A DNA stretch of 52,351 nucleotides, taken from positions 1 to 52,351 of the forward strand of contig CACHXC010000008.1 in the NCBI GenBank assembly GCA_902583715.1. Reading direction: 5' to 3'. The notes beneath the pieces are model-generated. The model was not told the DNA's origin, searched no databases, and saw only the letters and a list, made by a program, of their open reading frames with translations. The translations under genes were made by a program, and so were the position numbers. Source of the DNA: an uncultured SAR116 cluster alpha proteobacterium (GTDB taxonomy: Bacteria > Pseudomonadota > Alphaproteobacteria > Puniceispirillales > Puniceispirillaceae). Shown one piece after another: positions 6,190 to 49,651 of this stretch. Every line of letters starts with the position of its first letter. Within the stretch, counting starts at the first letter, position 1.

Positions 6190-6816
6190 ATGGCAAAATC
6201 TGATCATAAGCGGCATGCTGCGAAACATAAAATTGACCGCCGCCTTGGTGTGAATCTGTGGGGTCGTCCAAAATCACCTGTCAATGCCCGTGAATATGGC
6301 CCCGGCCAGCACGGTCAGCGCCGCAGAAAGCCTACTGACTTTGGTGTGCAGCTTATGGCCAAGCAAAAGCTGAAAGGCTATTATGGCAATATCGGTGAAA
6401 AACAATTTAAAAAATATTATAATGAGGCGGTGCGACGCAAAGGCGATACAGGTCAAAATCTGGTGGGAATTCTGGAATGTCGTCTTGATGCCATGCTTTA
6501 TCGCGCAAAACTCGTCCCAACAGTGTTTTCTGCGCGCCAGACCATTAACCATGGTCACGTGTTGCTGAACGGTAAGCGCTGTAATATTGCGTCGGTTTTG
6601 CTAAAGCCCGGTGATGAAATTACTTTAAGAGACAAAGCTAAAACCATTCCGGCGGTGCTTGATGCCATCGCATCTGTTGAACGTGACGTGCCTGAATATG
6701 TTGAAGTCGATCACAATAAATTCAGTGCCAAATTTGTTCGGGTACCATCTCTGGACGAAGTGCCTTATCCAGTTCAAATGGAACCAAACCTGGTTGTCGA
6801 ATATTACTCACGGTAA
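6190..6816 (+). CDS. rpsD: 30S ribosomal protein S4
   Basis: Primary 16S rRNA binder that nucleates assembly of the 30S body. The N-terminal part with [24 protein letters not shown] is diagnostic of bacterial S4. The S4 RNA-binding domain (about residues 97-160) includes [19 protein letters not shown] and [11 protein letters not shown]. The protein ends VEYYSR, as expected. The four-Cys zinc motif is absent, so this is the C-minus form. A strong Shine-Dalgarno (GGAG at 6179-6182) sits before ATG 6190. It stands alone with its own promoter, not in the alpha operon, as is usual in alphaproteobacteria. Confidence 0.98.
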
Positions 6817-6821
6817 GTGAT

Positions 6822-6838
6822 GCAGGCGGGTGGCCTGC
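6822..6838 (+). terminator. Short hairpin directly after rpsD
   Basis: GCAGGC (6822-6827) and GCCTGC (6833-6838) form a perfect 6-bp stem with a 5-nt loop, starting 5 bp after the stop. There is no T-run, so it is at best a weak or factor-assisted terminator or an mRNA 3' end stabiliser. Confidence 0.35.
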
Positions 6839-6905
6839 GATGATGTAAATAGTCATTTCCCCAAGCGTCACAACACAGCTGTCCGGCGTTTTTTAATGCC
6901 CGTGG

Positions 6906-7000
6906 CCCCTATCAGCCGCAGTTTGTTTGACTGGGAGCTGATGGGGAACTGACGGTGTAGCCAGTAATGGGGATGTTGAAATTGCGTCCCCTTTGTCAGT
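6906..7000. other. Two adjacent inverted-repeat arms; candidate structured RNA
   Basis: This is the main content of the 402-bp gap between rpsD and the next gene (6817-7218). Arm 1 is CCCC (6906-6909), bulged T, ATCAGC (6911-6916), CAGT (6919-6922), a 7-nt loop, ACTG (6930-6933), GCTGAT (6937-6942), GGGG (6943-6946): 14 pairs. Arm 2 is ACTGAC (6948-6953) with GTCAGT (6995-7000), enclosing GGGGA (6969-6973) with TCCCC (6987-6991). The arms are separated by one base. T-rich bases follow (7001-7008). No good promoter is visible just upstream. It may be a 3' UTR fold, a terminator pair or a small RNA. Confidence 0.45.
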
Positions 7001-7059
7001 ATTGTTTTAAAAAAATGCTGCATAAAAACCATTAACCCATAAAAATATCCGATAGTTTG

Positions 7060-7077
7060 CCGTCATGGGGCATACGG
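7060..7077. other. Bulged inverted repeat in the rpsD downstream gap
   Basis: CCGT (7060-7063) and ATG (7065-7067) pair with CAT (7071-7073) and ACGG (7074-7077), with one bulged C and a 3-nt loop. No T-run follows. The rest of the gap (7078-7218) shows nothing I can support. Confidence 0.25.
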
Positions 7078-7218: not shown

Positions 7219-7605
7219 ATGATGGAAACCGACTCAGCACTTGATAAAAATGGATGGCCTGAGCGTTATTTCGCGGTGATTTTTACAGCACAGCGTAGCC
7301 TAAGCGGTGATGACATATATGATTTGACGGCCGACCGCATGGTCTGGCTGGCCCAGCGCCAACCCGGATTTTTAGGGGTCGAGTCGGTAGGAGGGGATGA
7401 CGGTATTGGTATCACTGTGTCTTATTGGGTAGACCGTCAAGCGATTGCCAACTGGCGTCAACATGCCGAGCATCTGGCGGCACAAGCCCTTGGCCGTCAG
7501 GAATTTTATGATTGGTACCGGATACGTGTGGCCGAAGTGGTGTCAGAGCGTAGCTTTATCGCCGATACAATTGTCAAAAACAGTGAGCTGGACCGAGACA
7601 TATAA
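7219..7605 (+). CDS. Antibiotic-biosynthesis-monooxygenase (ABM) fold family protein
   Basis: Small dimeric ferredoxin-like alpha+beta barrel protein of the ABM superfamily, 128 aa. Family marks: RYFAVIFTAQRS at the start of strand 1, LAQRQPGFLGVESV in the middle, then TVSYWVDRQAIANWRQHAEH and FYDWYRIRVAEV near the C-terminus. Homologues of this type are common as stand-alone proteins of unknown substrate; some relatives degrade haem or quinones. ATG 7219 and ATG 7222 are adjacent and no strong ribosome site separates them. It converges on grxD, the stops 10 bp apart. The specific reaction is not known. Confidence 0.75.
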   Translation: MMETDSALDKNGWPERYFAVIFTAQRSLSGDDIYDLTADRMVWLAQRQPGFLGVESVGGDDGIGITVSYWVDRQAIANWRQHAEHLAAQALGRQEFYDWYRIRVAEVVSERSFIADTIVKNSELDRDI

Positions 7606-37263: not shown

Positions 37264-37500
37264 ATGAGCGATATTGCAGATCGTGTTAAAAATATTGTTG
37301 TTGAACATTTGGGCGTTGATGCCGATAAAGTGGTCGAGGGCGCAAGTTTCATCGATGATCTTGGCGCTGATAGCTTAGATACAGTCGAACTGGTTATGGC
37401 GTTTGAAGAAGAGTTTGGCGTTGAAATCCCAGACGATGCTGCAGAACGTATCCTGACAGTGAAAGACGCGGTGTCATTCCTCGAAGAAAACGCTGGTTAA
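37264..37500 (+). CDS. acpP: Acyl carrier protein
   Basis: Carries growing acyl chains on a 4'-phosphopantetheine attached to Ser37 in [20 protein letters not shown]. 78 aa, acidic and helical, as usual. AGAGG just upstream (about 37251-37255) serves ATG 37264. It lies between fabG and fabF, with probable own promoter. Confidence 0.99.
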
Positions 37501-37588
37501 TTATCGCAGTTGACCACCGCTGTGCATTGCCGTTGCGATGGTGATGCGCAGCCGCTAACTGGCCAATAATATCTCCTGGAGGGTTGCT

Positions 37589-38851
37589 TTGCGTCGAGTC
37601 GTAGTTACCGGATTAGGGATGGTTACCCCACTTGGATCGGGGGTGGACCATAATTGGTCAAAAATAACCGCTGGCAAAAGCGGTATATCCAAAATTGAAA
37701 ATTTTGATGTGTCTGACATTAGCTGTCGTATTGCTGGTCAGGTGCCGGGTGCCGACCAACCCGGCGGTCTTAACCTTGATGATTGGATTGACCCGCGTGA
37801 GCAACGCAAGCAAGACAGATTCATTCAGCTTGGTCTTGCTGCGGCATGTCAGGCGGTTGAAGATTCCGGCTGGAAGCCAGACGACCGCGAGGCACAAAAT
37901 CGCACGGGTGTGATGATTGGGTCTGGTATTGGCGGTCTTGAGTCGATTGTTGTTACCAACCAATTGATGAATGAAAAAGGGCCGCGTCGCATCAGCCCGT
38001 TTTTTATCCCGTCAGCCTTGATCAATCTTATTTCGGGTCATGTGTCGATTCGTTATGGGTTTCGCGGGCCAAACCACGCGGTTGTCACGGCCTGTTCAAC
38101 CGGCGCGCATGCCATTGGTGATGCGGCGCGGATGGTGGCGCTTGACGATGCTGATGTGATGATTGCTGGCGGTGCTGAAGCCGCTGTCTGCCGGATTGGT
38201 ATGGCTGGGTTTGCCGCCGCGCGTGCGCTGTCGACAGGCTATAATGACACACCTGAGGTGGCATCACGGCCATGGGACAAGAGGCGTGACGGGTTTGTGA
38301 TGGGCGAAGGCGCTGGTATTGTTGTTCTGGAAGAATTGGAACATGCCAAAGCACGCGGTGCAAAAATTTATGGTGAAGTCAAAGGCTATGGGATGTCTGG
38401 TGATGCGCATCATATCACTGCCCCAGCTGATGATGGCGATGGTGGATTCCGTGCCATGCAAGCCGCGATGAAGCGTGCTGGTTTAACCCCGACTGATATT
38501 GATTATGTCAATGCACACGGCACATCAACGCCGCTTGGTGATGTGATTGAGGCCAAGGCTGTGGCACGTCTGCTTGGTGATGCCATTGGCTCGGTGTCGA
38601 TTTCTTCCACCAAAAGCGCGACCGGGCATTTACTGGGGGCGGCTGGGGCCATTGAGGCCATCTATTCAATTAAAGCCGTTGAAACTGGTATGTTGCCGCC
38701 GACCCTAAATCTAATGGAACCTGAAGATGACGTGGCTGGATTTGACCTGGTGCCGCTGAAAAGCCGCCCGCGTCAAGTGCGCAACGCCATGTCTAATTCG
38801 TTTGGCTTCGGTGGCACCAACGCATCCTTGATTGTTGGTCAGGTGACCTGA
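37589..38851 (+). CDS. fabF: 3-oxoacyl-ACP synthase II
   Basis: Elongating beta-ketoacyl-ACP synthase. Cys-His-His triad: Cys169 in VTACSTGAHAIGDA, His in VNAHGTSTPLGD, His in KSATGHLLGAAGA. 420 aa. The start is TTG 37589, supported by GGAGG at 37578-37582 with 6-nt spacing and by the N-terminus RRVVVTGLGMVTPLG; no ATG fits. The stop overlaps the mltG ATG by one base (TGATG). Confidence 0.97.
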   Translation: MRRVVVTGLGMVTPLGSGVDHNWSKITAGKSGISKIENFDVSDISCRIAGQVPGADQPGGLNLDDWIDPREQRKQDRFIQLGLAAACQAVEDSGWKPDDREAQNRTGVMIGSGIGGLESIVVTNQLMNEKGPRRISPFFIPSALINLISGHVSIRYGFRGPNHAVVTACSTGAHAIGDAARMVALDDADVMIAGGAEAAVCRIGMAGFAAARALSTGYNDTPEVASRPWDKRRDGFVMGEGAGIVVLEELEHAKARGAKIYGEVKGYGMSGDAHHITAPADDGDGGFRAMQAAMKRAGLTPTDIDYVNAHGTSTPLGDVIEAKAVARLLGDAIGSVSISSTKSATGHLLGAAGAIEAIYSIKAVETGMLPPTLNLMEPEDDVAGFDLVPLKSRPRQVRNAMSNSFGFGGTNASLIVGQVT

Positions 38852-48721: not shown

Positions 48722-48853
48722 TTATACCAGCGTGGCAGCCATGATCGCCAAGGTGATAATGATAGCGACGAGGCAGATTTTTGCCGCAAACATCACATTT
48801 TCGTAAATTTTCAGATGCTGTTTGGCCTGTTTATCAAATGAACTGGTATCCAT
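48722..48853 (-). CDS. aa3-type cytochrome c oxidase subunit IV-like protein, 43 aa
   Basis: The minus strand from ATG 48853 to TAA 48722 encodes MDTSSFDKQAKQHLKIYENV followed by a single hydrophobic helix (about residues 27-43). This matches the small bacterial aa3 oxidase subunit IV family (PF07835 by memory): a short charged head with an HxxIY-like element and one transmembrane segment. GGAG lies 11 nt upstream. It is too short for most ORF callers. The rest of the oxidase is elsewhere, as is common in alphaproteobacteria. Based on pattern only. Confidence 0.65.
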   Translation of the reverse strand: MDTSSFDKQAKQHLKIYENVMFAAKICLVAIIITLAIMAATLV

Positions 48854-48979
48854 TTCGCGATGCTCCCCTGTAAATTCTTCTGATGCACCCGTGGCTGTTT
48901 TGGCCTGTGTTTACATCTCATGTCAGATATATGGCCGAAATAGCGGTGTAAATCAACTGACAAATCGCCGCGATCATTG

Positions 48980-49651
48980 TCAGTGCTGTGGCCATTTTAG
49001 TGTTTTGATGAGGCGGCGATCAGCAGACAATGACGGTATCACAAGATCTGGACTGTGCCAGTTTACTTGGTACGCAGCGAGGGTCAGATGTCCCTCGCAC
49101 AAGCATTTTAGTACAAAAGGATAGAGATGATGTTCGAGCTGTAACACGCGTGCGGCCAGGCGATCTGCATCATCATCAGGCAAAATTGACAGCTCGGCTT
49201 GCAGAATGATGGGGCCTTCATCCAGCTCTGCAGTAACGAGATGGACGGTTGCGCCATGCTGTCTGGCCTGTGCGTCAATCGCACGTTGATGAGTGTCAAG
49301 TCCTTTAAATTCAGGTAAAAGTGACGGGTGAATATTGATCAATTTACCAGCAAACGCTTTGGTAAATTCAGCGCCAAGAATGGCCATATATCCCGCCAAA
49401 AAGACATAATCAGCGGATGATGATGTTATAGCATCTTGGATGGCCGCATCATGCGCCTGCCGCGTGGAAAAATTTCGCCTTTCGATGACTTTTGTTTCAA
49501 TGCCTAATTTTACCGCATGAGCAAGTCCAGCACAATGCTGGTTACTGATAACAATAGCGATACGTGCATCAAGTTGGTCTGTCTCGATGGCCTTGGCAAG
49601 TTTCACCATATTGCTGCCGCGGCCAGAAATAAGGATGGCAAGTTGAAGCAT
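48980..49651 (-). CDS. purN: Phosphoribosylglycinamide formyltransferase
   Basis: Formyltetrahydrofolate-dependent conversion of GAR to FGAR. ILISGRGSNMVKL near the start, INIHPSLLPEFKGLDTH (catalytic His), GATVHLVTAELDEGPIIL. 223 aa, slightly longer than the usual ~200-210, with a short C-terminal extension. Its ATG overlaps the purM stop by one base (TAATG). Confidence 0.97.
   Translation of the reverse strand: MLQLAILISGRGSNMVKLAKAIETDQLDARIAIVISNQHCAGLAHAVKLGIETKVIERRNFSTRQAHDAAIQDAITSSSADYVFLAGYMAILGAEFTKAFAGKLINIHPSLLPEFKGLDTHQRAIDAQARQHGATVHLVTAELDEGPIILQAELSILPDDDADRLAARVLQLEHHLYPFVLKCLCEGHLTLAAYQVNWHSPDLVIPSLSADRRLIKTLKWPQH

Follow-up and report, generated by a model that had tools for sequence, protein, structure and literature searches.

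Two neighbouring predicted RNA stems downstream of rpsD in an uncultured SAR116 alphaproteobacterium

In the 52,351-nucleotide stretch of SAR116 DNA analysed here (the window), the gene of ribosomal protein S4 is followed by two long inverted repeats, and the locus raises the question of whether these form a conserved RNA element, belong to the 3' end of the rpsD transcript, or are intergenic sequence that pairs by chance.

The two stems and their setting

The rpsD stop codon and the next gene are separated by a gap of 402 bp that contains both hairpin arms (Table 1). The ABM-domain gene is followed by glutaredoxin and bolA on the opposite strand, as assigned by Pfam, and the rpsD locus is ordinary, because inspection by eye shows the same order rpsD, ABM gene, glutaredoxin and bolA in G010, the nearest relative. 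The nearest rpsD genes in named records were those of MAG casp15-mb.96 (its contig is that of G010) and of a Candidatus Puniceispirillum MAG, and many of the 80 rpsD loci listed carry the SAR116 cluster name, which places the window in the SAR116 clade. Short ORFs are present in the gap, and the longest one wholly inside it encodes 54 aa on the minus strand. By-eye reading of other loci showed a gap without ABM gene in L032, where the glutaredoxin gene comes next on the opposite strand, and an acetyltransferase-like frame downstream of rpsD in L033, L038 and L041.

Table 1. Features of the rpsD-ABM interval, with positions in the window
Feature	Coordinates	Strand	Basis or remark
rpsD (ribosomal protein S4)	6190..6816	+	Pfam PF00163 and PF01479; 97% protein identity to G010
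Weak rpsD terminator-like hairpin	6863..6894 (stem 6863-6891)	+	Relatives have a strong terminator here
Arm A (long stem, apical hairpin)	6906..6946	+	Sequence and predicted fold
Tip of arm A	6916..6937	+	7/7 pairs can form in G010
Arm B (outer helix of 6 bp enclosing an inner hairpin of 7-8 bp)	6948..7000	+	Followed by ATTGTTTT
AT-rich block	7005..7063		48/58 positions identical to G010; perhaps ABM promoter region
ABM-domain (antibiotic biosynthesis monooxygenase family) gene	7219..7605	+	PF03992, 30.8 bits (cut-off 23.1)

The initial annotation had placed two stems one base apart in this gap, and our analysis confirmed them there, with the single base 6947 between the arms. In arm A, CCCC at 6906-6909 pairs with GGGG at 6943-6946 and ATCAGC at 6911-6916 with GCTGAT at 6937-6942, and the apical hairpin occupies 6919-6933. 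The 14 pairs reported for this stem are a fair count, and its minimum-energy fold (6907-6946) contains 16. Arm B had been described as a 6-bp outer and a 5-bp inner helix, both of which are present: ACTGAC (6948-6953) pairs with GTCAGT (6995-7000), and GGGGA (6969-6973) with TCCCC (6987-6991), the latter helix being lengthened to 8 pairs in the predicted fold, which also gains a 3-pair hairpin at 6954-6962. In arm A the pair probabilities were 0.97-1.00; in arm B they were 0.98-1.00 for the inner helix and 0.75-0.81 for the outer one. The T-rich sequence after arm B has T at 6/8 positions, and arm A is followed by AACTGACG.

The predicted fold was strong for its composition. No shuffled sequence folded as well as the region 6890-7020 (z = -5.82, 0/200) or as 6897-7003 on the plus strand (z = -5.21, 0/300), a statistic that was calculated after the hairpin pair had been picked by eye. 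The plus strand reached -50.5 kcal/mol against -34.1 kcal/mol for the minus strand (z = -2.81, 4/300 shuffles as good), and the weaker minus-strand fold is as expected if G-U pairs matter. Since the plus-strand fold is much better, any action of the stems would be as rpsD-sense RNA. The whole window was also scanned in 4180 overlapping tiles of 107 nt (step 25, both strands), and with only 15 shuffles per tile, which makes the z values noisy, the plus-strand tile from 6901 had the lowest z of all (-6.7) and the tenth-lowest energy. Its lead was small, because the runner-up tiles reached -5.90, -5.85, -5.83 and -5.78. The other strongly folded stretches that were examined lay inside long ORFs in 11 of 13 cases. 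A 15-pair hairpin was also seen at 37519-37553 in the fold of 37460-37600, and no long ORF lies between 37135 and 37589. The stems thus exist both in the sequence and in the predicted RNA. Their fold is beyond shuffle chance, yet it is the extreme of a tail rather than a lone outlier.

Searches for homologues and comparison with the nearest relative

The DNA search of 60 other family genomes revealed no credible homologue; matches at E <= 0.05 occurred in 3 of them, each of 22-25 bases. The covariance search that the initial annotation had proposed was carried out with a model (R1) built from the window sequence alone (self score 134 bits), which reaches near relatives only, so that it excludes close homologues and not a very diverged one. 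No credible homologue was obtained with it in the 60 genomes or in 80 rpsD loci, which overlap partly with these genomes and include one (L113) that breaks off inside rpsD. The best score among the loci was 10.3 bits (E 7.3), and in the genomes, under stricter filters, a single match at E <= 0.1 was found (G045, 24.1 bits), at a place where, judged by eye, a different gene seems to end and be followed by its own terminator. In the own genome, the best model match beside the element itself (15.8 bits, E 0.78) and the best DNA match (28 bases on contig C13, 86%) both looked coding-like by eye and were discarded. In G021, a 22-base match to the 5' side of arm A (95%; single-genome E 0.002, with 61 genomes searched) was taken as chance and appears by eye to be part of another gene. 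The supposition of a conserved two-armed element therefore did not survive for the element as a whole, as far as a model of one sequence can tell.

Rfam at gathering scores found only a tRNA elsewhere in the window, and the relaxed search (E up to 5) gave one snoRNA model at 6832-6907 (14.4 bits, gathering score 44, E 3.7), which is chance level. The 402-bp gap had no match in the phage and plasmid collections, nor had an exact 20-base pattern in viral contigs, and none of the literature titles listed was on the paired hairpins behind rpsD. A second pair of adjacent palindromes at 48890-48984 has its outer letters ACTGAC/GTCAGT in common with arm B. It lies between a minus-strand ORF ending at 48980 and a small minus-strand frame at 48722-48853, which resembles an aa3-type cytochrome oxidase subunit IV. 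Within the window this is one match against a shuffle mean of 0.04 (4/100 shuffles have one). Kinship of the two pairs was dropped because the whole genome has only 2 occurrences of the ACTGAC...GTCAGT pattern, whereas its reversed control occurs 4 times.

The rpsD DNA of G010 is 88% identical to that of the window, and the stretch from the terminator to the AT-rich block measures 107 nt in both, so it looks diverged in place and not inserted. Identity to G010 is 21/40 positions in arm A and 17/53 in arm B, and the gap outside the AT-rich block matches by 18-67%. Of the 36 pairs of the window, 18 can form in G010, 8 of them changed on both sides; in slid controls, with partners moved by 1-3 bases, 11-19 pairs could form, with 3-7 changed on both sides. 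The count of 18 is within the control range and hence gives no evidence of covariation, and the alignment is unreliable here, since alignment of the short stretches by themselves introduces gaps between the arms and within them. The equivalent sequences fold near shuffle level in G010 (z = -0.59, 77/300 shuffles as good) and in G008 (z = -1.24, hardly better than shuffles), so selection for structure is not visible across species.

The tip of arm A (6916-6937 to 6923-6929) is a partial exception, because all its pairs can form in G010 despite 5 substitutions, which replaced both partners of one pair and a single partner in three others (CAGTT-TGTTT-GACTG in the window, TGGTC-TATTT-GACCG in G010), and the best fold of G010 itself includes this hairpin. 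All five substitutions are transitions, and random transitions preserve all 7 pairs in 306/2002 placements, as compared to 0.5% for random substitutions of any type, for a helix that was chosen after the fact. These data lend weak support to the tip being one older hairpin. As judged from the sequences compared, the paired stems are a feature of this lineage and not a conserved element.

The rpsD terminator site

Where the relatives carry a strong terminator, the hairpin of the window is weak, with -6.1 kcal/mol as folded and -4.9 kcal/mol in the loci scan, and three T of its six-T run (6889-6894) lie inside the stem. At the homologous site, strong terminators of -21.4 and -22.8 kcal/mol are found in G010 (locus L042) and L043, respectively. 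The scan covered the first 187 nt downstream of rpsD and took hairpins that precede a T run, with a threshold of -10 kcal/mol. Among the first 22 loci listed (L042-L063, 86-97% S4 identity), 21 were at or below this threshold, with L047 the sole exception; in L049, L055 and L056 the best hairpin lies elsewhere in the gap than in other loci. L075, which was listed later (87% S4 identity), reached -23.7. Over all 79 loci scanned (L113 was left out), 42 reached -10 kcal/mol, 8 had weaker candidates only and 29 had none. A weak first terminator is thus unusual among close relatives and not in the wider clade.

The loci scan of the window stopped at 7003, which left arm B unscored. A separate pattern scan for terminators, with a loop limit that excludes arm B, reported a single site at 6902-6919, which clashes with the best fold of arm A, and this one site compares with 1.6 in shuffles, that is, fewer than expected.

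Possible roles of the stems

The AT-rich block may serve as promoter region for the ABM gene. As the element is upstream of this block, the likelier ABM promoter region, the stems can probably be assigned to the rpsD side of the gap, as 3' sequence of that gene. Bacterial mRNAs carry stable 3'-UTR stem-loops and tandem or backup intrinsic terminators, and the two arms have in common with them the stable coding-strand stems directly behind a gene and its first terminator site, and with such terminators also the T-rich stretch after the last stem. Unlike these terminators, arm B has a T tract that is imperfect, encloses a long internal segment and is unconserved in relatives, and it can be regarded as a candidate only. 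RNA polymerase passing the weak hairpin at 6863-6894 would transcribe both stable stems, arm B with its T-rich sequence could provide backup termination, though poorly, and the two stems could protect the RNA by slowing 3'-to-5' exonucleases. We give about an even chance to the model in which the stems are a fast-evolving structure in the rpsD 3' UTR and perhaps offer a backup transcript end where the first terminator has weakened. Among the three options of the initial annotation, a 3'-UTR structure or tandem terminator is accordingly the likeliest, given that the element comes after the site of the rpsD terminator and has its best fold on the strand of rpsD, and a small RNA found no support.

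The main rival is that the two stems are functionless intergenic sequence at an extreme of chance, which we consider possible and rather doubtful. The lack of a credible homologue in the 60 genomes, the pair count in the nearest relative, no higher than in slid controls, and the other tiles of the window that approach the same z are all in its favour; against it stand the z values below -5, which no shuffle in 300 equalled, and the tip of arm A, whose pairing persisted in G010 through substitutions that were all transitions, in a helix picked afterwards. That the gap between rpsD and the ABM gene encodes an independent small RNA is improbable. The compact two-stem form of about 95 nt, its high predicted stability and the T-rich sequence behind it would suit such an RNA, but it has no gathering-score match in Rfam, the relaxed match being a chance-level snoRNA, the family genomes searched contained no credible homologue, and apart from one hairpin tip there was no covariation. 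Moreover, the sole nearby promoter-like site is inside arm B and beyond (6976-7005), and promoter-like sites are no commoner than in shuffles (3 vs 2.4). A small RNA or riboswitch was rejected as a class assignment on the same Rfam result and the lack of a credible homologue in the genomes and loci searched. Still less probable is a 5' leader (attenuator) of the ABM gene: the element and this gene are on the same strand, but the element ends 218 nt before the start codon at 7219, ahead of the possible promoter block shared with G010, and the structure model found nothing before the ABM gene in the loci of relatives.

Two further readings carry little weight. It is very unlikely that the stems are a young regulatory RNA, in which the arm A tip shared with G010 would have grown two-armed here as the rpsD terminator weakened, read-through then giving a 3'-UTR-derived small RNA. 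REP and other palindromic repeats consist of adjacent imperfect palindromes in intergenic gaps, and the element resembles them in having two such palindromes near a terminator site. Unlike REP elements, it was found in one copy and shows no insertion against the nearest genome, where the homologous stretch is equally long. The own genome (1.49 Mb, 59.8% complete) contains only short DNA matches and one weak model match, and the outer letters of arm B are rarer in it than their reversed control, so a mobile REP or MITE-like repeat is the least credible of all these readings, with hardly any probability.

Even when a two-stem fold downstream of a housekeeping gene is striking, it does not have to be a conserved element. 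Comparison of this genome with G010 shows that the block ahead of the ABM gene was kept and that the stretch behind the rpsD terminator changed freely. Most likely the stems are a local variant of an mRNA 3' end and not a new kind of element, and no new category is needed for them. Their likeliest role, if any, is to supply a backup 3' end after a terminator that has weakened, for which the case is evenly balanced, and the likeliest alternative, a less probable one, is that they have no role. If they do act as a backup end, the locus would be a small example of terminator turnover.
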